Of a stretch of DNA of 44,707 nucleotides, positions 8,707-33,109 are shown piece after piece. The stretch's first letter is position 1, and every line of letters starts with the position of its first letter. The position numbers and the translations under genes are program-made. The DNA lies in assembly GCA_022013895.1 (NCBI GenBank), contig JAKLPK010000275.1, positions 1 to 44,707 on the forward strand. The letters are read 5' to 3'. Source of the DNA: Cellulomonas sp. (lineage in GTDB: Bacteria > Actinomycetota > Actinomycetes > Actinomycetales > Cellulomonadaceae). The notes below the pieces were generated by a model. The model had not been told where the DNA came from. It ran no database searches and worked only from the letters and a program-made list of their open reading frames with translations.

Positions 8707-8722
8707 CTTCAGCGAACCTTGA
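8707..8722 (+). promoter_or_regulatory. Direct-repeat box b
   Basis: CTTCAGCGAACCTTGA, upstream of the 8825 gene. Confidence 0.6.
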
Positions 8723-8830
8723 CCCGGTCGAAAGGGAACGCGCTGGCTGTGCGTGGCAGCGTCGTGACGGTAGGCCCGCGGCGAGTGCTGAGCCCATGAC
8801 CGCGGGCACCGGGTAGCACGGGAGGTGGCC

Positions 8831-10249
8831 ATGCCAGGTCGACCAGCGAAGCAGCCGAGTCCTCGATCCGGGACGAAGAAGCAGGCGCCGGCCGCGCGAC
8901 GTCAGGTCCCACCGGTGGCGCCTCGCCCGGGCGCCGGCGTGGACAGGCCCCCCGAGGGGAGCGCCTTCGGCCGGATCACGCCCGCCAACGTCGCGCCCGC
9001 CGGCGTCGCGCCAGTCGCGTGGCGACCAGCCCGCACGCGCCAGTCGGGCCCGTCCGACGCGGCCCCTCGCACGGCGGCGAAGCCTGCTGCCGTCCAACCG
9101 GGCCCCGCTCCCCTCGCCGCTGGTGACCGGCTACCGGTGCTGTCGAAGGTCGGCGGCGCCGCAGGGACCAGAGGTGCGCTGGAGTTCGTCAGCTTCAGGT
9201 CCCGCGCGCTCGCCGAGCTTCAGCCGCACGCTCTGGGGGTCACCTACTGGTTCGACCCGCCCGAGTCCGCCGGTTCGTTCAGCGTGGTCGTCCGCTTCGT
9301 CGGGCACCGGCTCGACGTCGAGGGCACGCGGGCTGCTGCAGACGACTTCGTCTCGGTGGCGTCGCTGCCCAGCATCAGGTCCGGGTCGGGCCGATCCGCC
9401 CTCACCCATCGGGTGCGAGGAGTCGCGGCGGGACGCTGGCACGTGACAGCGCAGGCGATGGCGGTCCCGGCGGGCGCGGCCCAGGGCGACGGTCTGCCCC
9501 TGCCCGCAGCGGAAGGAGTCGGGTCCACGACGTTCGCGCCCGTCGCAGGTGCCCGTGCGCCCGGGGTGGTGCTCGGGGCATGGCCCACCCTGGTCAGCGT
9601 CGGCGTGGTGCTTGCCCTGGTACTGCAGAGCCTGCTGGTCCGCGCGCACGGCCTTGCTCCCGTACGAGTGCTCATGCTCTCCCTCCTGGCCAGCGGGCTG
9701 GGTGCCATGGGGGCCAGGGGCTACTACCGGCTGACCCACCTGCGCGAGAGGGGCGGGCGTTGGCTCGCAGGCCTGAGTGTTCAGGGATTCGTCATCGTCG
9801 CTACTGCGACGTTCGTCGTGGGCGGCAGTCTGCTGGGCGTGGACATCGGCCACCTGCTCGACGCCACGGTGCCGGCCTTGCTCCTCGGACAGGCCGTAGG
9901 GCGCCTGGGCTGCCTGTTCGGCGGATGCTGCGCGGGAGTGCCGACGGACTCTCGTTGGGCACTCTGGTCCTCGGATCGCAGCGTCGGCACCCGGCGGGTG
10001 CCCGTTCAGCTCATGGAGTCGGCGGCGGCAGCATCACTCGCGGTCATCACCGGCCTTGTCGCGTGGCGCACCCCGCCGTCGTCGGCAGGGGTGCTCTTCG
10101 TGGTCGGCGTCGCTGCCTACGTGATCGTGCGACAGGTGCTCTTCCCGCTGCGCGGCGTGCCGCGAGCGACGCGGCACGGTCGCACGGTGACGCTCGCCGC
10201 CGCATCCCTCGTGCTCCTCGCCTCGCTCGTCGCGTGGACCCTCGCCTGA
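8831..10249 (+). CDS. Lgt-like (prolipoprotein diacylglyceryl transferase family) membrane protein with long N-terminal extension
   Basis: LLLGQAVGRLGCLFGGCCAGVPT...RRVPVQLMESAAAASLAVITGL; Lgt-fold C-terminus with GRxGC motif. Start codon uncertain (ATG at 8831 or slightly upstream). Confidence 0.65.
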   Translation: MPGRPAKQPSPRSGTKKQAPAARRQVPPVAPRPGAGVDRPPEGSAFGRITPANVAPAGVAPVAWRPARTRQSGPSDAAPRTAAKPAAVQPGPAPLAAGDRLPVLSKVGGAAGTRGALEFVSFRSRALAELQPHALGVTYWFDPPESAGSFSVVVRFVGHRLDVEGTRAAADDFVSVASLPSIRSGSGRSALTHRVRGVAAGRWHVTAQAMAVPAGAAQGDGLPLPAAEGVGSTTFAPVAGARAPGVVLGAWPTLVSVGVVLALVLQSLLVRAHGLAPVRVLMLSLLASGLGAMGARGYYRLTHLRERGGRWLAGLSVQGFVIVATATFVVGGSLLGVDIGHLLDATVPALLLGQAVGRLGCLFGGCCAGVPTDSRWALWSSDRSVGTRRVPVQLMESAAAASLAVITGLVAWRTPPSSAGVLFVVGVAAYVIVRQVLFPLRGVPRATRHGRTVTLAAASLVLLASLVAWTLA

Positions 10250-10819: not shown

Positions 10820-12439
10820 TCAGCCGGCTCGTCGAGATCCCATGAAGGTCCGGCGAAGTCTCGGCGAGCGCGCCCCACCGTGCGCACGGGCCGGCCGCCG
10901 AGCGCGCGTGGCGCGGATGCCTGCCGCCACTCCCGCGAGTGCCAGCACGACCACGACGATGACGACTCGGTCACCGATCCTGTCGGCTGGGGTCAAGCTG
11001 GTGCGCAGAGGGAGCTCCGCGAGCATCGTGTCGGAGGTGAACAGCGCAGTCTGTTGCTGGATCGTGCCGTCCGGACTGATCACCGCCGACACCCCGACGG
11101 TCGAGATCTGCACGGCGGCCCGGCCGTGCTCGACCGCCCGCAGCCGCGACATCGCCAGCTGCTGGGTGGACTCGGGGGTGCGACCGAACGAGGCGTTGTT
11201 CGTGGGGATGACGAGCAGCTCTGCCCCGTCGCGGACAGCGTCACGGACGAGGTCGTCGAAGGCGACCTCGAAGCAGATCACCGTGGCCAGCAGCACCGGC
11301 CGGCCCAGTCGCGGGGAGTCCAGCGGAACGACGGCTGACCGGGTCCCGGGCAGCATGTCCACCTGGACCCGGTCGACCTCGCTGGAGAACAGCCGGACGA
11401 GGCCACGCAGCGGGATGTACTCTCCGAACGGGGCGGGGCGCTGCTTGGCATAGGCGAACACCGGGCCGCGACCGGGTTGCCAGAGCAGCATCTCGTTGTA
11501 CCGGCCGGCGTCGGTGTACCGGTTGGTGCCCACCAGGATCGGCGCGCCGACCGACCGTGCGGCGGCGTCGATCGCGGCGGAGGCCGCGGAGTCTGCCCGC
11601 GGGTCGATGTCGGTGGCGTTCTCGGGCCACAGCACGACGTCGAGCCGACCGTCACCAACGGCTTCGCCGAGCGCGAGGGTACCGGCGACGTGGTTGTCCA
11701 GCACGGCGCGGGCACGGTCGGTGGCACCGGCGGCGGCGACGTCGCCCTGGACAGCTGCCAGACGCAGCGTCCCAGCTTCCGCCTCGTCAGCCAGGGGCAG
11801 AGCGGCACTCAGGAGCGGGAGTGTGACAACGACCCCGGCCGCGACGAGCGCGCTGCCGAGCCGGCGACCACGAACGGCGAGCCACGCCGAGGCGAGCAGG
11901 AACCCACTGGCCGCGACCGCGGCCGAGACCGCCGGGGCGCCACCGAGCCATGCGAGCCGCAGCAACGGTCCGTCGGTCTGGGAGAACGCCAGCCGCCCCC
12001 ACGGGAAGCCGCCGAACGGCCAGCCCGACCGCAGCTGCTCGGTGGCGACCCACAGCACGGCGAACGCAAGCACCGCCGACGGCCCATGACCGCCGAGCCG
12101 TGGTGCGCGCCGCGTCCAGGCCCACGCGGCGGTGCCGACGGCAAGGAGTGCGGCCTGCAGGGCTGCCAGCACCAGCCAGGGCAGCGGACCAGTGGCTTCG
12201 TCGGCCCACCTCAGGTGCGGGAGGAAGAAGGCCAGCCCCCACACGAGGCCGACCACCGCGCACCAACGCGGGGAGTCCCTGCGCAGAGCGAGAACCAGCA
12301 GGGCGACCCCCAGTGCCGCCATCGGCCACCACGACCGGTCGGGGAACGCGGTCTCGGTGACCAGGCCACCCGCTGTCGCTTGCGCCAGCGTCGTCCATCG
12401 CGAGGGCACAGCCGTGCTCTGGCCGACGCTCGACCCCAC
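10820..12439 (-). CDS. lnt: Apolipoprotein N-acyltransferase
   Basis: EQLRSGWPFGGFPWGRLAFSQTDGPLLRLAWLGG...VVLWPENATDIDPRAD...YAKQRPAPFGEYIPLRG...ICFEVAFDDLVRD...TNNASFGRTPESTQQLAMSRLRAVEHGR (C-N hydrolase domain). Confidence 0.9.
   Translation of the reverse strand: MGSSVGQSTAVPSRWTTLAQATAGGLVTETAFPDRSWWPMAALGVALLVLALRRDSPRWCAVVGLVWGLAFFLPHLRWADEATGPLPWLVLAALQAALLAVGTAAWAWTRRAPRLGGHGPSAVLAFAVLWVATEQLRSGWPFGGFPWGRLAFSQTDGPLLRLAWLGGAPAVSAAVAASGFLLASAWLAVRGRRLGSALVAAGVVVTLPLLSAALPLADEAEAGTLRLAAVQGDVAAAGATDRARAVLDNHVAGTLALGEAVGDGRLDVVLWPENATDIDPRADSAASAAIDAAARSVGAPILVGTNRYTDAGRYNEMLLWQPGRGPVFAYAKQRPAPFGEYIPLRGLVRLFSSEVDRVQVDMLPGTRSAVVPLDSPRLGRPVLLATVICFEVAFDDLVRDAVRDGAELLVIPTNNASFGRTPESTQQLAMSRLRAVEHGRAAVQISTVGVSAVISPDGTIQQQTALFTSDTMLAELPLRTSLTPADRIGDRVVIVVVVLALAGVAAGIRATRARRPARAHGGARSPRLRRTFMGSRRAG
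10843..10858 (-). promoter_or_regulatory. Direct-repeat box c
   Basis: Plus TGAAGGTCCGGCGAAG; coding strand CTTCGCCGGACCTTCA, ~38 bp upstream of the 10805 ORF (inside lnt 3' end). Confidence 0.5.
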
Positions 12440-14858: not shown

Positions 14859-17258
14859 TCATGATGCGCCAGGCAGCCGGAGCCGCCGCAGGAGCAGTGC
14901 GTTCACGGTGACGATCAACGTCGAGCCGGACATCGTCAGGGCGGCGATCTCGGGTCGCAGCCACAGGCCGAAGGCCGGGAAGAACACCCCGGCAGCGATC
15001 GGCAGGGCGATCGCGTTGTAGCCGATGGCCCAGGCGAGGTTCTGGTGCTCCTTGCGCACGGTGCCCCGCCCGATCCGCAGCGCGGTGGGCACGCCGAGCG
15101 GGTCGGAGCGCATCAGGACGAGGTCGGCGGTCTCGATCGCCACGTCGGTGCCGGCGCCGATGGCTATCCCCAGGTCCGCGGTGGCCAGGGCGGGGGCGTC
15201 GTTCACACCGTCGCCGACCATCGCCACACGTCTGCCGTCCGCCTGCAGCGCTGCGACCTTGGCGGCCTTGTCCTGCGGCAGGACCTCGGCGATGACGGTG
15301 TCGATGCCCAGCTGGTCGGCGATCCGCCGGGCGGTCGCCCGATTGTCGCCGGTGAGCATGGCGACGCTGACGCCGGTCTCGTGCAGCGCGGCGACTGCTG
15401 CCGCAGCAGTCGGGCGCGGCGCGTCAGCGAGGGCGATCACCCCGATGGCACGCCCGTCCACCGCGACGAGCACGGCGGTGCGACCGGCGGCGGCCAGCCC
15501 GTCGCGTCGCTCCGCCAGGGCACCGAGCTCGACTCCTTCGTCCGTCAGGAGGAGCGGGTTGCCCACCAGGACGCGGCGTCCGTCGACACTCGCGGCCGCG
15601 CCGTGCCCCGGCACGTTGCGGAACCCGATCGCCTGCCGGACCGGGGCGAGTCGCGCCGTGGCGTGCTGGTCGATGGCCCGGGCCAAGGGGTGCTCGGACT
15701 CGCGTTCGACCGCGGCCGCCAGGCTCAACAGCTCCAGCTCGTCCACGCCGTCGACCACGACGTCGGTGACCTCCGGTTCACCCTTGGTGAGGGTGCCCGT
15801 CTTGTCCATGATCACCGTGTCGATCTGGGCGGCGGTCTCCAGCGCGGTGGCGTTCTTGAACAGGACACCACGCTGGGCGCCCAGCCCGGTGCCGACCATG
15901 ATCGCGGTGGGGGTGGCCAGACCGAGCGCGTCAGGGCAGGTGATGACGACGACGGTGATCGCGAACAGCATCGCCTGCGCGAGCCCGGCTCCGGCGAGCA
16001 TCCACACGATGAAGGTGACCGCGCCGCCGACCAGCGCGACCAGGACGAGCCAGAACGCCGCCCGGTCGGCCAGCCGCTGCCCGGGGGCCTTGGAGTTCTG
16101 CGCCTGCTGGACGAGGTTGACGATCTGGGCCAGCGTGGTGTCCGCGCCGACCTTGGTGGCCCTGGCGCGCAAGGTGCCGGTGGTGTTGATCGACGCCCCG
16201 ATCAACGGTTGCCCGGGAGCTTTGGGCACGGGCAGCGACTCGCCGGTCACCATCGACTCGTCGACCTCGGACTCGCCCTCCTCGACGAGTGCGTCGACGG
16301 GGATCTTCGCGCCCGGCCGGATGAGCAGCGGGTCGCCGACCGCGACCTCGTCCGTCGCCACCTCGACCGGGGACCCGTCGCGCATGATCACCGCCCTGGG
16401 GGGTGCCAGCTGCAGCAGGGTGCGCACCGCGTCGTTCGCACCGCCACGGGCGCGCATCTCCAGCCAGTGCCCGAGCAGGACGAACGTGGTGAGCACGGTG
16501 GCGGCCTCGTAGAAGACCTCACCGCCGCCGGTCAACGTGACCGCAAGGCTGTAGACCCAGCCCGCGCCGACGGCGACGGCCACCAGGACCATCATGTCCA
16601 GGGTCCTGGCCCGCAGAGCCCGCACCGCCCCGTCGAAGAAGACCCACGCCGAGTAGAGGACCACCGGCAGCGAGGCGATCAGCGAGAACACGTCATCACG
16701 CAGGCCGAACGGCGCCGGGACGGTGAAGCCGATCACCTCCCGCCCGATCGGCGACCACAGCAGCACGACGACCGAGACGACCGCAGCGACGAGGAACCGG
16801 TTGCGCATGTCGCGCACCATGTCGGCCATCGACCCACCACCGTGGTGGCCGCCGTGGCCCATTGCGTCCTGCGCGCTCCGGGGCGCCTCCGGTCCGGCGT
16901 GCGTCTCGTGGCCCGCGCTGGGGTCGTGACCCGCGGGCAGCATGTGCCCGGCGTGGCCCTCATGAGGAACGCTCGTCGGGGTGGCGGTGAGGTGGCCGGT
17001 GCGCGGCTCTGCGGTCGGGTCGCACAGATGCTCGGGCACGGACTGGCCTGCGCAGTGGTAGCCGCACTCGCGCACCCAGGTCGTCAGCTCCGCGACCGAG
17101 GTGAGGGCCGGGTCGTAGCTGACCGTCGCAGTCTGCGTCGCGGCGTTGGCCGCGACGTCGATGACGCCCGGTCTGCGCCGCAGGTACCGCTGGATGACTG
17201 GCTCCGAGGTGGCCCAGTGCAGGCCGGTGACGTCGAGCACCGCTGTCTGTCGAGGCAT
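14859..17258 (-). CDS. Heavy-metal P1B-type ATPase with CPD motif, degenerate HMA-like N-terminus and His-rich linker
   Basis: VVITCPDALGLATPTAIMVGTG, DKTGTLTKG, ERESEHPLARAI, MLTGDN, MVGDGVNDAPALATADLGIAIGAGTDVAIETADLVLM; N-term GLHWATSEP lacks CxxC. Confidence 0.92.
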   Translation of the reverse strand: MPRQTAVLDVTGLHWATSEPVIQRYLRRRPGVIDVAANAATQTATVSYDPALTSVAELTTWVRECGYHCAGQSVPEHLCDPTAEPRTGHLTATPTSVPHEGHAGHMLPAGHDPSAGHETHAGPEAPRSAQDAMGHGGHHGGGSMADMVRDMRNRFLVAAVVSVVVLLWSPIGREVIGFTVPAPFGLRDDVFSLIASLPVVLYSAWVFFDGAVRALRARTLDMMVLVAVAVGAGWVYSLAVTLTGGGEVFYEAATVLTTFVLLGHWLEMRARGGANDAVRTLLQLAPPRAVIMRDGSPVEVATDEVAVGDPLLIRPGAKIPVDALVEEGESEVDESMVTGESLPVPKAPGQPLIGASINTTGTLRARATKVGADTTLAQIVNLVQQAQNSKAPGQRLADRAAFWLVLVALVGGAVTFIVWMLAGAGLAQAMLFAITVVVITCPDALGLATPTAIMVGTGLGAQRGVLFKNATALETAAQIDTVIMDKTGTLTKGEPEVTDVVVDGVDELELLSLAAAVERESEHPLARAIDQHATARLAPVRQAIGFRNVPGHGAAASVDGRRVLVGNPLLLTDEGVELGALAERRDGLAAAGRTAVLVAVDGRAIGVIALADAPRPTAAAAVAALHETGVSVAMLTGDNRATARRIADQLGIDTVIAEVLPQDKAAKVAALQADGRRVAMVGDGVNDAPALATADLGIAIGAGTDVAIETADLVLMRSDPLGVPTALRIGRGTVRKEHQNLAWAIGYNAIALPIAAGVFFPAFGLWLRPEIAALTMSGSTLIVTVNALLLRRLRLPGAS

Positions 17259-17384
17259 CCGATTCACACCCTTCTCGTCTCGTCGTGCCTTCGTCTGTCG
17301 TGCTGGTGACGGCTTGCCGCTCCGCAGGTGCTGTCCGACCCCGGCGCTCGTTCCCACGATGGGTCGCGGGGAACGAGCGCCGGG

Positions 17385-17672
17385 CTAGCTGCGGACAAGG
17401 CGGGCGATGGCCGCGGACGCCTCCTGAACCTTCTCCTCGTGCACCTCGCCACCCGCCTGGGCCGCCTCGGCGAGGCAGTGGTGCAGGTGCTCGTCGAGCA
17501 GCAGCAGACCGACAGACTGCAGAGCCCGGGACACTGCGGAGACCTGGGTGAGCACGTCGATGCAGTACGCCTGCTCCTCGACCATCCGTCCGATGCCCCG
17601 CACCTGACCCTCGATGCGGTGCAGCCGGTGCAGGAGGGCGTCGCGTTCGGTTCCGGTGGTGACCACGATCAT
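17385..17672 (-). CDS. csoR: CsoR/RcnR-family metal-sensing repressor
   Basis: RDALLHRLHRIEGQVRGIGRMVEEQAYCIDVLTQVSAVSRALQSVGLLLLDEHLHHCLAEA; Cys/His/Cys ligand pattern. Confidence 0.9.
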   Translation of the reverse strand: MIVVTTGTERDALLHRLHRIEGQVRGIGRMVEEQAYCIDVLTQVSAVSRALQSVGLLLLDEHLHHCLAEAAQAGGEVHEEKVQEASAAIARLVRS

Positions 17673-17697: not shown

Positions 17698-17895
17698 TCA
17701 GCTCGTCGCGGTCTGGTGGCCGTACCGGTGCGGGTCGGCGTCGAAGGTGGCGGCGCAACCGGAGGAGCAGAAGTAGAACGTCGCGCCATCGTGCTCGCGG
17801 CTGGCAGCGGCGGTCTTCGGATCGACGCTCATGCCGCAGACCGGGTCGACAAACGTGGCGGTGTTCTTGTGCTGGTGGTGGTCGTGGTGACTCAT
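17698..17895 (-). CDS. Possible nested in-frame YHS-only product
   Basis: Internal ATG preceded by GAAGAGGAGAACCCC, the same leader as the free-standing YHS gene at 12671. Confidence 0.45.
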
Positions 17896-20484
17896 GGGGT
17901 TCTCCTCTTCTTCGTGGTCGCGTCCGATCTCCACCACCGGGTCGATGGTGCGGACAGGTGAGCCAGCACGGGGTGCTGGGGTCGGCGTGGGTGTGAAGCG
18001 GCGCAGCCGGTTGGCGTTGGTGACGACCGACAGCGAGGACAGGGCCATCGCCAGGGCGGCGATGATCGGGCTGAGCTTCAGCCCGAACGCCGGGTAGAGC
18101 GCGCCGGCCGCGATCGGGATGCCGATGGCGTTGTAGCCGAAGGCGAACACCAGGTTCTGGCGGATGTTGCGCATGGTGGCCCGCGACAGGTCGATCGCGG
18201 TGACCAGCCCGCCCAGGTTCCCGGAGATCAGGGTGATGTCGGAGGACTCGATCGCCACGTCCGTGCCGGTGCCGATCGCCGAGCCGACATCGGCCTGCGC
18301 CAGGGCGGGGGCGTCGTTGATCCCGTCACCCACCATCCCGACGACGCGCCCCTCGGCCTGCAGCCGCTTGACCTCCCGGGCCTTGTGCTCGGGCATCACC
18401 TCGGCCACGACACGTCCGATGCCGACCTGCCGGGCGATCGCCGCGGCGGTGGCGTGGTTGTCGCCGGTCATCATCACCACGTCGATACCCCGGGCGGCGA
18501 GGTCGGCGACGGCGGCGATCGAACCGTCCTTGATCGTGTCGGCCACCCCGATCACCCCGGCTGCGCGGCCCCCGACGGCCACGAGCATGGGGGTCTTGCC
18601 GTCGGCGGCGAGCCGGTCCAGATCTGCCGCCAGTCCGGTCGGGTCGATGCCGGACTCGGCGAGCAGGCGCCGGTTGCCGACGAGGACCTCCACCCCGTCG
18701 ACGTGGGCGCGCACGCCCTGACCGGTCACCGAGCTGAACGAGTCTGCTGCGGGCACGACCAGGCCGCGGTCGCGGGCCCCGGCGACGATGGCGGCGGCCA
18801 GCGGATGCTCGGAGTCACGTTCGGCCGAGGCAACCAGGGCGAGCAGACGAGCGGCGATGAACCCCGCAGCGGGAAGGACGTCGGTCAGCGCGGGGGTGCC
18901 CTTGGTGATGGTGCCGGTCTTGTCCAGCACGACGGTGTCGAGCTTGTGCGCGGTCTCCAACGCCTCGGCGGACCGGATGAGGATGCCGTTGGTCGCGCCC
19001 TTGCCGGTGCCGACCGTGATCGACAGCGGCGTCGCCAGTCCCAGCGCACACGGGCAGGCGATGATGAGCACGGCGACCGCTGCGACGAGGGCCAGAACTC
19101 CGGCCGGCGGCGGGCCGACCAGCCACCAGGTCACGAACGTCCAGATCGCGATCGCGATCACGGCGGGCACGAAGTAGCCGGAGACTCGGTCGGCGAGTCG
19201 CTGGATCGGAGCCTTGGAGCCCTGCGCCTCGCGGACGAGCTTGATGATCTGGGCGAGCATCGTGTCCGCGCCGACCTTGGTCGCCACGTACCGGAACGAG
19301 CCGGTCTGGTTGATCGTCGCGCCGATCACCGTGTCACCGACCGTCTTGACCACCGGGATCGGCTCGCCAGTGACCATCGACTCGTCCACCGGGGACGTCC
19401 CGGCGCTGACCTGCCCGTCGACCGGGAGCTTCTCCCCCGGCCGGATCACCACGGTGTCACCTACCACGACGTCGGCCACCGGGAGCTCGACCTCCTGCTC
19501 GCCGCGGACCACTCGCGCGGTGCGCGGCTGCAGGCCGATCAGCGCACGGATCGCCTCACCGGTTCCCGCCTTGGCCTTGGTCTCCAGCATCCTGCCCAGC
19601 AGGATCAGCGTGAGGATCACGCCCACGGCCTCGTAGTACACCTCGCGGGAGTCCACCGGCAGCAGGCTCGGGGCGAAGGTCGTCACGAGGCTGAACCCGA
19701 AGGCGGCGATCGTGCCCAGGGTGATCAGAGAGTTCATGTCCGCGGCCCGGTGGGACAGAGCCAGCCAGCCGGTGCGGTGGATCGGCCAACCGGTGTAGAC
19801 CATCACCGGGGCGATCAGCAGCACCTGGAACCACGGCTCCAGCAGCAGCGACGGCACCCACGTGGCGCCGAACAGCTCATGGGCCATCACCGCGACGAGC
19901 ACCGGGAGCGTCAGCAACGCACCCCAGATCACCCGTCGGCGCAGGTCGCCGATCTCCGCGGCCCGCTCGGCCGCCTCCTTGTCGTCCGGCTCGTCGCCCA
20001 GGCCCTGCGCGTCCTGGCCAGAAGGCGCTGCCGCAGCCACAGCCGGGGTGTGGTGCTCACCCGGTCCCTGGACGGCCGGCTCGGACGGGGCCAGGGTGGC
20101 CGACGCGACACCACCCGGGCCGGCCAGCACCTTGACCGTGCCGTGCAGCATGTTCATCCCGCATGCGAAGCCGAACTCGCCGTCCTGCTGCGGTGTGAAC
20201 TCCACCGCCGTGGTGGCGTACGCCGACAGGGTCTGGTTCACCTTGAAGTCCGGGAACACCACTCGGGACGAGCAGTCACCGGCTTCCTGCCGATCGAACA
20301 GCAGTCGCACCGGAACGCCCTGCACGACCTCGATCACGTCCGGGCTGTAGCCGCCCTTGACCGTGACCGTGAGGACCTGCACCCCGCCTTCCACGACCGC
20401 GCGGCTCGACGAGCGTGGTCCGAAGAAGTACCAACCCAACGCGCCTGTCAGCGCGACCGCGACCAAGATGACGACCACGTCCAT
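17698..20484 (-). CDS. copA: Fusion protein: cupredoxin - copper P1B-type ATPase (CPC) - C-terminal YHS domain
   Basis: N-term cupredoxin [16 protein letters not shown]; ATPase [46 protein letters not shown]-term [45 protein letters not shown], all in one frame. Confidence 0.92.
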
Positions 20485-20593
20485 GACGGTCCGACCTCCG
20501 TTCGATGCCCGCCGAGACCTCGGCGGGAGACTGGCCCCCCACGGACGTCCAGGTGCGCTCACGCCTGCGCGGAGCCGGCGGTCGCGAGATCCT

Positions 20594-20612
20594 GATACCC
20601 CGTGGGGGTATC
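20594..20612. promoter_or_regulatory. Perfect palindrome GATACCCC-GTG-GGGGTATC, candidate CsoR operator
   Basis: 8-bp perfect arms; resembles known CsoR-type TACCCC...GGGGTA operators; upstream of the copper ATPase-csoR operon. Confidence 0.8.
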
Positions 20613-20655
20613 CCCAGAGTAGACCGCTGATTGCTGAGGCGGCGCTTCAGGTCCA

Positions 20656-20671
20656 TGGAGGTTCGATGAAG
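20656..20671 (-). promoter_or_regulatory. Direct-repeat box e
   Basis: Plus TGGAGGTTCGATGAAG; coding strand CTTCATCGAACCTCCA. Confidence 0.6.
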
Positions 20672-20714: not shown

Positions 20715-22025
20715 TCAGGACAGCACGGGATGCGAGTGCCCGCCGCGGGCATGCAGCACCGACGGGTCGGAGCGCACGGCGACGACCGCGGCGACGGCGG
20801 TGGTGAGCGGGATGGCCAGCACCAGGCCGATCGACCCGGAGAGCGTGCGCACGATCTCCTGCGCGAACACCCCGCCGGTCAGGGTCCGGACGAGTGAGAG
20901 CTGGTAGAGCTCCAGCAGCAGCAGGATCGGCACAGACGCGCCGACGTACGCGAACGCGATGGTGTAGATGGTCGAGGCGACGTGGTCACGGCCGATGCGC
21001 ATGCCACCGGCGAAGAGCTGCTGCCAGGTAGCGCCCGGGTCGGCTGCGCGCAGCTCCCAGATCGCGGAGACCTGCGTGATGGTGACGTCGTTGAGCACCC
21101 CGAGACCGGCGAGGACCACACCCGCCAGGAACACCCCGCGCAGTGTTGCCAGACCATGGTCGCCCAGCAGTCCCGCGAGCCGGTAGTCCTCCTCGCCGCT
21201 CACCGGGTTCAGCTTGGCGGCCCAGGCGCCGAACGCGCCGAGAGCTGCGACCATCACCAGCCCGAAGAAGGTGCCCAGCAGCGCGGTCGATGTTCGTAGC
21301 GAGAGCCCGTGGGTCAGGTAGCCGACCACGGTCATGATCGCGATCGACGCGGACAGGGTCAGCACCAGGGCGTTCTCGCCCGCGATGAGGCCGGGAAGGA
21401 CGTACACCCACAGCAGCACCATCGCCACGACGAGGCCGATCAGCGCCCGGACTCCGCGCCAGCCCGCGACGATGGCGGTGACCAGCAAGAACGCCAGCGT
21501 CAACGTGGCCAGGGGGACGGTGCGTTCGACGCTGGAGAACGCCCAGGTCTCGTCGTAGCCGTCGGCGGCCGGATAGTGCTCGACGACGATGCCGGCACCT
21601 GGCGCCACGTCGCGCGACGCGACCCCGAACGTCGGGTAGACCGCGATGACCCGACCCGCAGCCGGCCCCTCGGTCACACGCGCCTGCACCCGCTGGCACG
21701 GCACCTGGTCGGGGACCGTGCCATCGGCCTGGACGTTCTCCTGCGTGCCGGCGCACATGTCCGCCACCGAGTCGGTCACGGTCGCGCCGTAGTAGTGCAC
21801 GTCGACATCGACGAGGCCCGCGCCGGTCGAGGCGTCGGCCACCGACGGTGGCCACGTCCAGGCGATGCCCACGAGCGCGGCCAGCGTCATCGGGACCACC
21901 ACGAGCAGGACCAGCAACCCGGCGCGCGACGTGCGGGGCACACGGTGGTGCACGGCACGCGCCGCGCTGCGGTCCCGCCCGAGGGCAGGAGGAGTCAGCG
22001 GCCGATCCTCGGACACATGATTCAC
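20715..22025 (-). CDS. YibE/F-family membrane protein
   Basis: VLNDVTITQVSAIWELRAADPGATWQQLFAGGMRIGRDHVASTIYTIAFAYVGASVPILLLL. Confidence 0.88.
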   Translation of the reverse strand: MNHVSEDRPLTPPALGRDRSAARAVHHRVPRTSRAGLLVLLVVVPMTLAALVGIAWTWPPSVADASTGAGLVDVDVHYYGATVTDSVADMCAGTQENVQADGTVPDQVPCQRVQARVTEGPAAGRVIAVYPTFGVASRDVAPGAGIVVEHYPAADGYDETWAFSSVERTVPLATLTLAFLLVTAIVAGWRGVRALIGLVVAMVLLWVYVLPGLIAGENALVLTLSASIAIMTVVGYLTHGLSLRTSTALLGTFFGLVMVAALGAFGAWAAKLNPVSGEEDYRLAGLLGDHGLATLRGVFLAGVVLAGLGVLNDVTITQVSAIWELRAADPGATWQQLFAGGMRIGRDHVASTIYTIAFAYVGASVPILLLLELYQLSLVRTLTGGVFAQEIVRTLSGSIGLVLAIPLTTAVAAVVAVRSDPSVLHARGGHSHPVLS

Positions 22026-22736: not shown

Positions 22737-23846
22737 TCAGCCGTGCGGGAGGTCGATGACGAACTGCGCCCCGCGGCCCGGTCCCGAGCTGTGGGCGACG
22801 ATGGTGCCGCCGTGCGCCTGGACGAGAGCCTTGGTGATGGCCAGACCGATGCCCGACCCGCCATGTGCCCTGTCTCGAGCGGTGTCCACGCGGTAGAACC
22901 GCTCGAACACGTGCGGCAGGTGTTCAGGCGCGATCCCCTCGCCGGTGTCGGTGACCGTGAACCGCACGTACGGGCTGCGCCGCTGTACGCGGATGCTGAC
23001 CTGACCACCTGGCCGCGTGTGCCTGATCGCGTTGTCGAGCAGGTTGCCCAGCACCTGCCCGATGCGGTCGCGGTCGACCCACAGCACGGGCACATCGGGG
23101 GCAACCTCGCCGACGAGGACCAGGCCGGCCGTGTCGGCGCGACCTCGGGCGGCGGACAAGGCGGCCTCGACCAGGGCCCCGGGGGCAACGGGCTGCTCGT
23201 CCAGGCGTAGTGCCCCACTCTCCGCCTGGGTGACCGCGGCCAGGTCGGTGGCCAGCCGGGTCAGCCGGGACGTCTGCGCTCGGAGCACGTCGACGGTCTG
23301 GGCGTTCAGGTCCTGGACGCCGTCCTCGAGGGCGTCGATGTACGCGGCGATGGTCGCGACCGGGGTCCGCAGCTCGTGGGCGACGTCCGCCATCAGGCGT
23401 CGACGGCGCCCCTCGTCCTGGTCGAGGCGGGCGGACATGGCGTTGAAGGCGATGGCGAGCTCGTCGAACTCGGCACCGATGTGCGGCTGGGCCAGGCGGA
23501 TGTCGAAGCGCCCGGCGGCCACCTGCCCCGCGGCGGCCGACAGGCTCCCCAGCGACGTGCCGATCCGCCGGGCGAGCACGATGGTGGCGACCAGGGCGGT
23601 CAGCAGCGCCGCGGACAGCGCGACCGCGAGGGTGACCGCGCTGGCGGAGGCGAACGCGCTCTCCGCGTGCTCGACCGCGGTGCCGGGCGAGTTCTCCGCC
23701 TGGGCCATGTGCCGGTGGAACAGTCCTGGCCCCACGGCGCCGGCCGCCATCCAGGCGGCCAGGGCGGCTGAGACGAGGACGAGCGCCATGGCGACCATCA
23801 GACGGGCCGCGATGCCGCTGCGATCGAGGCGCGGGGCCGGTGTCAT
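22737..23846 (-). CDS. Sensor histidine kinase (HAMP, HisKA, HATPase)
   Basis: LMADVAHELRTPVATIAAYIDALEDG; DRIGQVLGNLLDNAIRHTRPGGQV; DTGEGIAPEHLPHVFERFYRVD; GGSGIGLAITKALVQAHGG. Confidence 0.93.
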   Translation of the reverse strand: MTPAPRLDRSGIAARLMVAMALVLVSAALAAWMAAGAVGPGLFHRHMAQAENSPGTAVEHAESAFASASAVTLAVALSAALLTALVATIVLARRIGTSLGSLSAAAGQVAAGRFDIRLAQPHIGAEFDELAIAFNAMSARLDQDEGRRRRLMADVAHELRTPVATIAAYIDALEDGVQDLNAQTVDVLRAQTSRLTRLATDLAAVTQAESGALRLDEQPVAPGALVEAALSAARGRADTAGLVLVGEVAPDVPVLWVDRDRIGQVLGNLLDNAIRHTRPGGQVSIRVQRRSPYVRFTVTDTGEGIAPEHLPHVFERFYRVDTARDRAHGGSGIGLAITKALVQAHGGTIVAHSSGPGRGAQFVIDLPHG

Positions 23847-24565
23847 CCGCCTGTGCCCATCCGGTATCCCACGCCGCGCACGGTGCGCACGAAGCGCTGC
23901 TCGGTGGCGGTGTCGGAGAGCTTGCGGCGCACGTGCAGCAGGTGGACATCGACCAGATGCTCGTCACCGACCCACTCGTCGCCCCACACCGCCGCGATGA
24001 GGGCCCGGCGACTGAAGACACGTTGCGGCGCGGACCCCAGCGTCGCCAGCAGGTCGAACTCGGTACGAGTGAGCGCTACCGGCTCTCCGTCGAGGTGGAT
24101 CTCGCGACCGACAGGGTCGATGGTCAGCGGTCCGAACGTCATCGCCACGGGTTCGAGGGCCGGGACAGCCGTCGGCGAAGCGCGACGAGGTCGGCGTAGC
24201 AGCGCCGTGATGCGAGCGACCAGCTCGCGGGGCCGGAACGGTTTGGTGACGTAGTCGTCTGCGCCGACCGACAGCCCGATGAGGGTGTCGATCTCCTCGG
24301 TGCGGGCAGTCAGCATCACGACATAGGCGTCCGAGAACGTCCGCACTCGGCGGCACACCTCGATCCCGTCCATCCCGGGTAGTCCGAGGTCGAGGACGAT
24401 CACCTCGGGGCTGCGCTCCAGGGCCAGCCGGATCGCCGAATGCCCGTCGAACGCCAGATCGACAGCGAAACCCTCGCGTTCCAGGTAGCCGGCGACGAGC
24501 CTGGCGAGGGGCTCCTCGTCGTCGACGACGAGGGCACGGTGCGCTGCGGGTGTTGATGTGTCCAT
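23843..24565 (-). CDS. OmpR/PhoB-family response regulator
   Basis: LVVDDEEPLARLVAGYLEREGF...VIVLDLGLPGMDGIEVCRRVR...MLTART...GADDYVTKPFRPRELVARI + winged helix RRALIAAVWGDEWVGDEHLVDVHLLHVRRKL...VRTVRGVGYRMG. Confidence 0.95.
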   Translation of the reverse strand: MDTSTPAAHRALVVDDEEPLARLVAGYLEREGFAVDLAFDGHSAIRLALERSPEVIVLDLGLPGMDGIEVCRRVRTFSDAYVVMLTARTEEIDTLIGLSVGADDYVTKPFRPRELVARITALLRRPRRASPTAVPALEPVAMTFGPLTIDPVGREIHLDGEPVALTRTEFDLLATLGSAPQRVFSRRALIAAVWGDEWVGDEHLVDVHLLHVRRKLSDTATEQRFVRTVRGVGYRMGTGG

Positions 24566-24625: not shown

Positions 24626-24641
24626 CTTCATCGAACCTTGA
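24626..24641 (+). promoter_or_regulatory. Direct-repeat box g
   Basis: CTTCATCGAACCTTGA between divergent response regulator (-) and thioredoxin operon (+). Confidence 0.65.
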
Positions 24642-24741
24642 TGGAACCGACACCGGGAGTGCAGGCGTGCGCCTGGATCATCGATCGTGGCGTCAACCAC
24701 GTGCGTCCGCACGAGGTGCCCTAGGTCAACAGGAGGAGCCG

Positions 24742-28776: not shown

Positions 28777-28900
28777 TGTCAAGGGACATTGGGAACTGCC
28801 CGGTGGCGGACGTGAAACCTGCCCGCTGACGGCCACGAGAACTGCCCGGTGGTGGCCATGGGATCTGCCCACGGGGGCGGCCACCACCGACCAAGGTCGG

Positions 28901-29674
28901 TTAGTTCAACGGGCTCACCCCCTGGCCTGAGAGTGCTTGGGTGAGGCGGACGCTGTCGCCGCTGGTCTGGCAGATGTGGGCGTGGTGCAGGAGCCGGTCG
29001 ACGGTGGCGGTGGCCAGTGTCTTGGGCATCAGCTCGTCGAACCCGGAGGGGTGCAGGTTCGAGCTGATCGCGATGGAGCGTTTCTCGTAGGCGGCGTCGA
29101 CGAGTCGGTAGAGGCCTTCGGCGGCGTCCGCTGCGACTGGGAGTAGGCCGATGTCGTCCACGATGACCAGGTCGGCGCGTAGGACGCGGGCGATGGCCTT
29201 GGTGACGGTGTCGTCGGCTCGGTGGCGGCGTAGCAGGACGCCGAGGTCTTCCAGGGTGAACCAGGTGACCTTGAGCCCGGCCTGGACGGCCTGTTGTCCG
29301 AGCGCTTCGAGCAGGAACGTCTTCCCAGTGCCCGAGGGTCCGCAGACGACGAGGTTCTCGCGTCGGTGGACCCACTCCAGGGTGCGTAGCGCCTGTTGGG
29401 TCGGTGCCGGGATCGAGGATGCCTCGGGCTGCCAAGCGTCGAAGGTCTTCCCGGTCGGGAACCCCGCGGCCGCCCTGCGGGTGGCCAGGGCCGAGCGTTC
29501 CCGGCCGGCGACCTCCTCGGCGAACAGGGCCTTGAGGACTTCGGCGGGCTCCCAGCGTTGAGCTTTCGCGGTCGCGACGACCTCGGGGGCGTGACGGCGG
29601 ATGTGGGGCAGCCGCAACCGGCGCAGCAGTTCCTCCAGGTCCGCCGGCAGCGGCGGGGCGGTGGTGGTCTTCAC
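28901..29674 (-). CDS. istB: IS21-family helper ATPase
   Basis: NLVVCGPSGTGKTFLLEALGQQAVQAGLKVTWFTLEDL...LVIVDDIGLLP; GTGA overlap with istA stop. Confidence 0.93.
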   Translation of the reverse strand: MKTTTAPPLPADLEELLRRLRLPHIRRHAPEVVATAKAQRWEPAEVLKALFAEEVAGRERSALATRRAAAGFPTGKTFDAWQPEASSIPAPTQQALRTLEWVHRRENLVVCGPSGTGKTFLLEALGQQAVQAGLKVTWFTLEDLGVLLRRHRADDTVTKAIARVLRADLVIVDDIGLLPVAADAAEGLYRLVDAAYEKRSIAISSNLHPSGFDELMPKTLATATVDRLLHHAHICQTSGDSVRLTQALSGQGVSPLN

Positions 29675-31212
29675 GCGATCACCTCGCCCTCGCGGTCGGT
29701 GTCCGCAGCGGACTGCTGGCCGAGCCGTGCCCAGGCGCTGGTGCCCTGAGTCAGGGAGGAGTCCTCGCTGGCCCGATGCTGCCCGGCGCTGGGCTGGCGG
29801 GCGTGGTGGTCCAGGATCGAGGGCAGGTCGGTCTCGGCGAACCGGCCGTGCACCGCGGCGTGGCCGAGCGCCCAGTCGACCTCGACGGGGTCGAACAACT
29901 TGGCCAGGCTCAGCGCCTCGGCCATCTTGACTCGCATCTTCGTCGTGCCCGCCGCGGCGGCCTCGACAAGCCACAGCCGGGCGCCTTCACCCAGATCGAG
30001 GAACTCCACCTCTGCAGCGTTCCTCGCCCGGGGCCGTCGGTCCAGCGGTCCCTCGGGCTGGGGTGGGAAGTGCTCCTCGTCGATCCTCGGCGTGCCGGGC
30101 GTGGCCCGGTGGTGGCGGGCGACCTCGACCGGCCCGTCCTTGCCGACGTGGACGATCACGACCTGCTCGCCGTCGCCGACACCATGAGTGCGCACCCACA
30201 CCGTCTGACCCAGCAGGGTGTGCGGGACCGAGTACTGGCCGGACTCGAACATCACCATCGGCGTGTTGGGCGGGACGACGCGGGTGGTGCCGAATGCGAC
30301 CGTGTGCGGCGTGCTCGCGACCGGATGGAGCCGGGGGTGTTCCTCGGCGAGCATCTGCATCGGCGGGCGCTTCGTGAGCCGGTGAGCCCTGCTGTTGACC
30401 TTCTCGCAGAACACCTCGCAAGCGGCCTGCAGCTCGGCGAACGAGCCGTACTCGGGCAGCAGGTTGGTCTCCTTTGGGACCAGGTCGGCCTTGCTGATCT
30501 TCACCGACGCCTCGGTGCCGCCCTTGGACGCCGGATCGGCCGGCACGCAGGTGTGCACGCTCACCGAGTAGTGCTCAGCGAACGCCACCAGCTGCGGGTT
30601 ACGGACCGCGATCCCGGCGATGTGCTCGACCGTGACGGTCTTCTCGTTGTCGGTCAGCACATACGTCGGCACCCCTCCCAGCCGCCGGAACGTCTGGTCC
30701 AGTGCGGCGAACACCGATGGCATCGTCTTGTCCCGCAGTGGCAGCACCACCCGGAACCTCGACCACGCCAGCCACGCCACGAACAGCACCGTCTTGACGC
30801 CGTTGATGACCGGGCCATCGCCGTAGTCGTACTGCAGCCACATCCCCGGCTCGGTGACCCAGGGCCGATGCACCCGCACCCGTCCAGCGCGGTAGGCCGC
30901 CTTGACCTGCGCGACCGCGCGGCGGGTGGTCCGCTCCGAGCCGGCATAGCCCAACGCCACGAGCTTCTCGTGGGCCACGTCAGCGCGGACCTTGCCCTTG
31001 GACCGGTCGACCCACTCCTCGACCTTGGGCAGGTACTCATCGATCAGCTGCGGCCGAGCAGCCGCCTGATCCAGCTCGCCACCAGCAGCACGCCGCTGCA
31101 CGTAGCCCTTGACCGTGTGGTGGGAGCAACCGGCCAGCTCACCGGCATCACGCAACGACCCGGTCAGATCGTAAGCATTCAAGATTTCCATGATCTCCTC
31201 GGCAGACTTCAA
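29671..31212 (-). CDS. istA: IS21-family transposase
   Basis: HTH then DDE: RVHRPWVTEPGMWLQYDYGDGPVINGVKTVLFVAWLAWSRFRVV...YVLTDNEKTVTVEH...PASKGGTEASVKISKADL. Confidence 0.95.
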   Translation of the reverse strand: MKSAEEIMEILNAYDLTGSLRDAGELAGCSHHTVKGYVQRRAAGGELDQAAARPQLIDEYLPKVEEWVDRSKGKVRADVAHEKLVALGYAGSERTTRRAVAQVKAAYRAGRVRVHRPWVTEPGMWLQYDYGDGPVINGVKTVLFVAWLAWSRFRVVLPLRDKTMPSVFAALDQTFRRLGGVPTYVLTDNEKTVTVEHIAGIAVRNPQLVAFAEHYSVSVHTCVPADPASKGGTEASVKISKADLVPKETNLLPEYGSFAELQAACEVFCEKVNSRAHRLTKRPPMQMLAEEHPRLHPVASTPHTVAFGTTRVVPPNTPMVMFESGQYSVPHTLLGQTVWVRTHGVGDGEQVVIVHVGKDGPVEVARHHRATPGTPRIDEEHFPPQPEGPLDRRPRARNAAEVEFLDLGEGARLWLVEAAAAGTTKMRVKMAEALSLAKLFDPVEVDWALGHAAVHGRFAETDLPSILDHHARQPSAGQHRASEDSSLTQGTSAWARLGQQSAADTDREGEVIA

Positions 31213-31406
31213 CTCATCCCTTCCTCGGGGCGATAGGGCGCATCAGCACCGCTCATCGCACCCGAGGAAGGGGCCTCAACCGCGCAGGGCGGCGAGACAG
31301 ACGACGTCGTGTCGGGCAGATCCCGTGACCGTCAACGGGCAGTTCTCATGTCCGCCAGCGGGCAGCTTCGTGGCCGTCTCCGGGCAGTCTCTCGTGGCCG
31401 CCGACA

Positions 31407-31560: not shown

Positions 31561-33048
31561 TCAGCGGAGTCCCAGGAGCGGGGCAGGGTCGACGGTCTTG
31601 CCGCCGAGATACACCTCGAAGTGGAGGTGACAAGCGCCCGACAGCCCGGTGTTGCCGGAGTAGCCGATGAGCTGCCCGCGGCTGACCTGCTGGCCCCGGG
31701 ACACGACGGACCGAGTCAGGTGGTTGGAGCTGCTCATCAGGGACTGTCCGTCGACGGTCCCGTAGTTGAGCATGACCTGGTTCCCGAAACCGTTGCGCCA
31801 CTCGGACCACTGGACCGTCCCGTCGCGGGGCGCGTACAACGGGGTGTTGCAGTACGTGCGCAGGTCGATACCCGCGTGCAGACGGTAGTAGCCGAGGATC
31901 GGGTGCAGTCGCATCCCGTAGTTCGACGTGACGTACATGGGCTCGATGGACGTGGGGTTCGAGAAGAGGATCCCCGTGTCCGGGCGGGGGGCGGCCGGTC
32001 CACCGGACGCCGGTCCCGCGCCACCGGGAGGCGCCGGCTGGGAGGGTGTCGACGGTCGGGGCGACTTCGCCGCAGCCTCTTCCTGGGCCGCGATCTGGGC
32101 GATCTCCGCCTCGGCGGCCGCACGGATGGCGTCGGTCTCGGCCTGTTCGGCCTCTGCCTGTCCCTTCATGCTCTCGAGGCGCTCGGCCGCTGCGGTCTGG
32201 TCGGCGATGACCCTCGTGAGAGCCTCGCTCTTCTCACGTTGGGCTTCCATCGCCGCCGCGGCCACCTGCTCCTGCTCGGCCGCAGCTGTCTCGAGCTCGG
32301 ACAGAGTCCCGACCACGGCCTCCAGTCGGGTCCCGCTGTTGCGGGCACTGGCCTGCAGCTCGGCGAGCTCGGTCATGGACCGCGCCTGCAGACGCTGCGC
32401 GGTGGCAGCTGACTCGGACTGGTCGATGTAGTCGTCGACCGAGGTCGCGCCGATCGCGATCTCCAAGGTGACGCTCTGCCGCCCGCCACGGTAGGCGTCC
32501 CGCGCCAGCTGCGCGACTGTCGCCCTCACCTCGCTCTGACGCGTCGAGTCCTGTGCGATCTGGACCTGCAGCGAGGAGCGCAGGTCAGTGGCGTCCTGCA
32601 GCTTGGCCCGCGCGACAGCTGCTTGTCGTTGCGCGGACTCGGCCTGACGGGTGGCTTCCTCCAGGGCCGCCTGCACCGCGGGAAGCTGGGCCTCGCTCTC
32701 CTTGAGCGTCAGGACCGCCTGAGCGAGGTCTGCGGAGAGATCTTCCACCGACTCCTGGAGGAGCTCGTACTGCCGGCGCGCGTCGGTGGCTCGCTGCTGC
32801 GCCGCACGCTGCTTGTCGTCGAGCGTGTCCCCCTCCGCGGCGACGCCCGGTGCGAGCGCGGTGACGAGAAGGAGCACGAGCGCGACGGCCAGACCGCCGG
32901 GCCACCCTGCCCTGGGTCTGCCCAGCGTCCACCAGGTGGATCGGCGGACGGACGCCACCTTGGACCGCATCCCCCAGGTCCGCTCAGCTGATGCCGCCGA
33001 GCTGGCGCGCCTCGGTCGGCAGCCGTGGTCGTCGCGATCATGGTGCAT
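31561..33048 (-). CDS. Coiled-coil M23-family murein endopeptidase
   Basis: Signal-like N-terminus, long coiled coil (QRAAQQRATDARRQYELLQESVEDL), LysM-less M23 domain HPILGYYRLHAGIDLRTYCNTPLYAPRDG...GACHLHFEVYLGG. Start may be internal. Confidence 0.9.
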   Translation of the reverse strand: MHHDRDDHGCRPRRASSAASAERTWGMRSKVASVRRSTWWTLGRPRAGWPGGLAVALVLLLVTALAPGVAAEGDTLDDKQRAAQQRATDARRQYELLQESVEDLSADLAQAVLTLKESEAQLPAVQAALEEATRQAESAQRQAAVARAKLQDATDLRSSLQVQIAQDSTRQSEVRATVAQLARDAYRGGRQSVTLEIAIGATSVDDYIDQSESAATAQRLQARSMTELAELQASARNSGTRLEAVVGTLSELETAAAEQEQVAAAAMEAQREKSEALTRVIADQTAAAERLESMKGQAEAEQAETDAIRAAAEAEIAQIAAQEEAAAKSPRPSTPSQPAPPGGAGPASGGPAAPRPDTGILFSNPTSIEPMYVTSNYGMRLHPILGYYRLHAGIDLRTYCNTPLYAPRDGTVQWSEWRNGFGNQVMLNYGTVDGQSLMSSSNHLTRSVVSRGQQVSRGQLIGYSGNTGLSGACHLHFEVYLGGKTVDPAPLLGLR

Positions 33049-33093
33049 GGCTCAAGCCTGAGCGCAAGACGTGAAGTCTCTGCGGTCACGCCA

Positions 33094-33109
33094 TGAAGGT
33101 CCGATCAAG
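33094..33109 (-). promoter_or_regulatory. Direct-repeat box i
   Basis: Plus TGAAGGTCCGATCAAG, with in-phase TGAAG at 33072; upstream of M23 gene. Confidence 0.6.

Follow-up and report, generated by a model that had tools for sequence, protein, structure and literature searches.

Reviews of copper sensing present two parallel circuits, one built on cytoplasmic repressors (CsoR) and the other on extracytoplasmic two-component systems, and a 2022 review describes the cytoplasmic and periplasmic copper sensors separately (PMC9470648). The operator rule TAC-N9-GTA was set for S. lividans CsoR by mutation and calorimetry (PMC3902906), and EMSA on mutated fragments established the C. glutamicum CopR box, TGAAGATTTgaTGAAGATTT (PMC3140484). 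Here we describe a conserved promoter that appears to join the two circuits, located on the minus strand of a 44,707-nucleotide stretch of a Cellulomonas sp. contig (the window) in front of the genes CopA1, csoR, and CopA2. A preliminary description had placed both control elements within one promoter, and this is borne out by the sites, their spacing, and their conservation, which extends to dozens of relatives and also to held-out genomes, such that there is good support at the sequence level for the anatomy of a dual-control promoter. That it integrates two copper sensors by the full mechanism proposed below is, in our judgement, likely.

The copper ATPase operon and its promoter

The features of the window that are relevant to the promoter are as follows.

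8707..8725, plus strand: CopR-type box (17/19), 5' of an LGT-like gene, without a CsoR operator
10840..10858, minus strand: CopR-type box (18/19), in tandem with 10829-10847, 5' of a DUF2752 gene, without a CsoR operator
14859..17357, minus strand: CopA2, a second P1B-type ATPase with a His-rich N-terminus
17385..17672, minus strand: CsoR-family copper repressor with a C-H-C ligand pattern and an RLHR motif
17698..20484, minus strand: CopA1, a P1B-type Cu ATPase that has a cupredoxin-like domain at the N-terminus and a YHS domain at the C-terminus; the operon begins with this gene
20594..20612, no strand assigned: putative CsoR type-2 operator GATACCCC-GTG-GGGGTATC, following the TAC-N9-GTA rule and overlapping the predicted start (about 20609)
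20616..20621, minus strand: predicted -10 hexamer TACTCT, at 50 bp from where the direct repeat begins
20653..20671, minus strand: putative CopR-type response-regulator box, direct repeat CTTCATCGAACCTCCATGG, two units with an 11-bp period (box e of the preliminary description)
20715-22025, minus strand: YibE/F gene, 5' of the palindrome
22737..23846, minus strand: sensor histidine kinase (CopS-like) with a short extracytoplasmic loop and two conserved His
23843..24565, minus strand: OmpR-family response regulator (CopR-like), the presumed ligand of the repeat
24626..24644, plus strand: second exact copy of the CopR-type box, between the response regulator gene and a divergent thioredoxin-like gene, without a CsoR operator
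33091..33109, minus strand: CopR-type box (19/19), 5' of an M23 peptidase gene, without a CsoR operator

The gaps between CopA1, csoR, and CopA2 are about 25 bp, and the palindrome is flanked by the YibE/F gene and the CopA1 start, all on the minus strand. The csoR product belongs to PF02583 and contains the YCIDV and HLHHC ligands and the RLHR motif, but with 127 bits against a cut-off of 175 in the RicR-specific NCBIfam model it is assigned to the CsoR family only. An OmpR-family response regulator and a sensor kinase are encoded 2-4 kb upstream of the promoter, as expected for a CopRS-type system; the regulator scores 148.7 bits with the heavy-metal response regulator model TIGR01387, whose cut-off is 279. 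Two His residues in the extracytoplasmic loop of the kinase are retained in nearly all relatives and would fit copper sensing outside the cytoplasm.

The copper island is probably mobile, because three further genomes of the genus have no copy of the window ATPase (E <= 1e-150), while a genome from another family of the order encodes an 86% identical counterpart. Fused cupredoxin-ATPases like CopA1 recur in actinobacteria, and the two parts are separate genes on cyanobacterial plasmids. Between 22100 and 22261 (minus strand), 21-bp tandem repeats encode a His-rich tail of the GHDHGAS type on a small membrane protein (MKHHLKHMAIGGG...), which is probably metal-binding and recently expanded. Further along, 23-bp repeats at 28790-28870 and 31314-31368 form inverted ends around a transposase gene (29671-31212) with rve and Mu-transpos_C_2 domains, and the arrangement looks like an IS21-type element.

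The palindrome, GATACCCCGTGGGGGTATC at 20594-20612, has a 3-nt centre flanked by two perfect 8-bp arms. It had been called a perfect 19-bp palindrome; the site and its coordinates stand, but not the word perfect, as 3 positions do not match in the reverse complement. Chance can be discounted, since shuffles of the window gave no palindrome match at up to 3 mismatches and exact copies are rare in the genome. Its inner part reads TAC-CCCGTGGGG-GTA (20596-20610), an inverted repeat with two G/C tracts as in type-2 operators, and the operator also occurs at a csoR promoter of the same genome: the exact form ATACCCC-N3-GGGGTAT is found twice in the 3.76-Mb assembly, here and at positions 2904-2920 of contig C163, directly 5' of an independent series of csoR, copZ-like, and copA genes. 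Its sequence and this second copy at the csoR-copZ-copA operon thus support the reading of the palindrome as a putative CsoR operator. A third similar site, on contig C51 with 2 mismatches, was rejected as it lies within an apparent aldo/keto-reductase coding sequence.

The direct repeat at 20653-20671 matches the repeat consensus at 19/19 positions, and the six matches in the window form five boxes (8707, 10858, 20671, 24626, and 33109), presumably the boxes a to e of the preliminary description. Genome-wide, ten matches are obtained when up to 2 mismatches are allowed, and six of them are in the window, which represents 1.2% of the genome (P=6e-10). Assignment as a response-regulator box (like TGAAGATTTnnTGAAGATTT) is supported by agreement with TGAAGATTTgaTGAAGATTT from C. 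glutamicum, read on the complementary strand, at 15 of 16 shared positions of the consensus, and by the presence of the box at the response regulator promoter as well; the repeat is thus a candidate CopR-type box. The pattern TTCATN6TTCATN6TT has no match because the second half-site is degenerate.

Several other observations concern these boxes. The M23 peptidase gene (31561-33048) has a full-match box upstream (33109-33091, minus strand), which suggests cell-wall remodelling as part of the copper response, and a related Cellulomonas plasmid cluster also contains M15/C40 peptidases. The region at 8707-10249 (plus strand) has a box and then an LGT-like (prolipoprotein diacylglyceryl transferase) gene, and LGT and Lnt genes are a repeated finding in these copper clusters. 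Four tandem CopR half-repeats rather than two lie 5' of the dual promoter at positions 1221-1310 of locus L021, a contig labelled as an 'Acidobacteria' MAG; the ATPase encoded there shares 70% identity with that of the window.

The TACTCT hexamer previously noted next to the palindrome is present at 20621-20616 (minus strand), between repeat and operator, and the predicted start is therefore near 20609, inside the operator, with the centre of the box near -51. The distance of about 45 bp formerly given between repeat and palindrome requires correction, as the gap is 37-40 bp and the start-to-start distance is 60. Only one of the five window boxes (20671) is paired with a palindrome, in agreement with the earlier observation that the palindrome occurs only at the ATPase-csoR-ATPase operon. 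There is no recognisable -35 at the window promoter (2 of 6 positions). A search of the region for a consensus sigma-70 promoter found none. A strict search for repeat and palindrome combined gave a single hit in this genome and no hit across 394 other genomes of the class; relatives vary and the strict pattern is too tight for them, so this result speaks for specificity and not prevalence.

Conservation of the layout in related ATPase loci

To this window we added 80 related ATPase loci, giving a set of 81, and a locus was counted as dual when an operator matching at least 12/14 positions is accompanied by a box 59-70 bp upstream. Both elements are present at these distances in 34 of the 81 loci (33 plus the window), which fall into 26 dissimilar promoter clusters and come from genera that include Cellulomonas, Xylanimonas, Rarobacter, Sanguibacter, Intrasporangium, Serinicoccus, Ornithinimicrobium, Tessaracoccus, Kocuria, and Nocardioides. 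A TANNNT sequence is located at box position +50 in fifteen of the dual loci and at +49 in six more (21/34, with a background of 0.0013 per position); the exact motif at +49/50 is missing in the other 13/34. The -10 and the operator are separated by 10 to 19 bp. Between clusters the DNA from box to -10 is only 29% identical, the level of random sequence, and the box itself 66%; retention of length and sites without retention of sequence is as expected for protein sites. The dual relatives match a -35 no better than random (2.3 versus 2.45 of 6). Boxes without an operator are weakly enriched for a -10 at +49/50 (4/68), and the exact distance rule is therefore claimed for dual promoters only. 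The mRNA leaders of CopA1 in the window and in the near relatives L004, L006, and L007 have GGGGGGCCA (20520-20545) in common.

A response regulator similar to that of the window is encoded, within the stretch examined for each locus, at 19 of 33 dual loci and at one of the 47 others (p = 1e-8); for loci with full flanks the counts are 12/17 and 1/25. The RR-bearing exception among the non-dual loci (L025) has boxes slightly further upstream. Some dual loci have no such gene in the stretch examined, although many contigs end early and the gene may be elsewhere. Since the repeat consensus was drawn in part from loci later scored with it, the independent tests are those provided by the held-out loci, by the place of the -10, and by the agreement with the published box. 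The held-out genomes contributed three new dual loci, with spacings of 59, 61, and 63 and the -10 at +49 in two of them.

The loci with an operator and no box at the expected place are organized differently. In 9/18 of these the first base of TANNNT falls within the right operator arm, compared with 0/34 of the dual loci (p=1.3e-5), and six of eight held-out operator-only loci, including one on a Cryobacterium plasmid, also have an embedded -10. The csoR promoter on C163 is of this type, with an embedded TATAGT and no box. Actinobacterial copper ATPase operons may thus use two interchangeable promoter grammars, a CsoR-only one whose -10 lies within the operator, and a dual one in which the operator has moved to the start site, the CopR box is fixed 49-50 bp from the -10, and copper is required both outside and inside; we are evenly divided as to whether this generalization holds.

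Proposed mechanism and alternatives

In the proposed mechanism, the CopR-like response regulator, phosphorylated via the RR/HK pair sensing extracytoplasmic copper, would bind the 11-bp direct repeat just 5' of the -35 position and bring RNA polymerase to a TANNNT -10 unaccompanied by a -35. Apo-CsoR, the operon's own and perhaps also the second CsoR of the genome, would occupy the palindrome over the start and block transcription until released by cytoplasmic Cu(I), such that full expression would need both signals. As the layout recurs in many actinobacteria, outside and inside copper signals probably meet at one switch. The missing -35 and the fixed distance from repeat to -10 favour activator dependence, the operator at +1 favours a CsoR veto, and together these would yield AND-type logic. 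Absence of a -35 is, however, common in high-GC actinobacteria and so argues only weakly for activator dependence. We infer the binding of both regulators, the start site, the compartments of sensing, and the AND logic from the arrangement of sites and genes.

The main alternative accepts both regulators at this promoter but dispenses with the AND gate, their effects being additive or the activated polymerase overriding CsoR to give an OR-like or graded response. Because the operator floats 10-19 bp from the -10, CsoR may be a partial roadblock rather than a strict occlusion, and the same metal signals to both sensors; however, the lack of a -35 above random in the dual promoters and the fixed activator-to--10 geometry suggest little activator-free transcription, and we regard this alternative as possible but somewhat doubtful. 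Orthologous genes with CsoR-only promoters do exist, and CsoR could in principle be the sole controller here, with the repeat a relic or serving another gene. This is very improbable given a 19/19 repeat placed at the conserved 50 bp from the -10, an operator that has no internal -10, and an RR/HK pair encoded close by.

Control by the two-component system alone, with the palindrome arising by chance or serving another factor, would accord with the other window boxes, which have no palindrome. Yet the palindrome is kept in position in 34 loci where the adjoining spacer is not, the same site recurs at csoR-copZ-copA, and csoR is itself within the operon, so we consider this explanation very improbable. 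Lastly, an inverted repeat near a long leader (about 125 nt) could act as an RNA hairpin rather than a protein site, but the predicted +1 is inside the palindrome, leaving only part of it in the RNA, and the leader shows no folding advantage over shuffles (z -0.78); a search of the leader for Rfam families gave no match, and a hairpin is extremely unlikely. Integration of both sensors at the one promoter remains the reading that we prefer.

Comparison with described copper regulators

The regulators are known and the promoter arrangement is not described in the literature searched: no account of CsoR and CopR joined at one promoter was found in a search that did not extend to two relevant C. 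glutamicum CsoR papers. Such a promoter illustrates how bacteria could limit a costly efflux operon to conditions with copper on both sides of the membrane, provides a testable rule (box, 49-50 bp, -10, operator) by which others of its kind could be predicted from genomes, and is a ready-made two-input copper biosensor part.

The window operator resembles the type-2 operators of S. lividans CsoR in having TAC-N9-GTA with G/C tracts (consensus ATATACCCCTNAGGGGTATAT), but differs in that it lies 3' of the -10, overlaps the predicted start, and is paired with a putative activator box (PMC3902906). It shares the core ATACCCC-N3-GGGGTAT with the housekeeping csoR-copZ-copA promoter on C163, whose CsoR is 60% identical to that of the window; that promoter, in contrast, lacks an activator box, and its -10-like hexamer, TATAGT, overlaps the operator. 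In C. glutamicum, as is proposed for the window, CsoR represses P1B ATPase operons (Teramoto 2012, 2015, as reported in PMC5057107), and the three units of that regulon, as far as this secondary account goes, are a possible precedent for CopR co-control. The C. glutamicum CopRS system (PMC3140484) likewise has a direct-repeat box with an 11-bp period beside the response regulator gene and a regulon of TlpA-like redox genes and a Cu ATPase, but there one CopR box serves both copR and cg3286. In the same model CsoR acts on a separate promoter (ctpV-csoR), whereas in the window both putative sites lie in one promoter.
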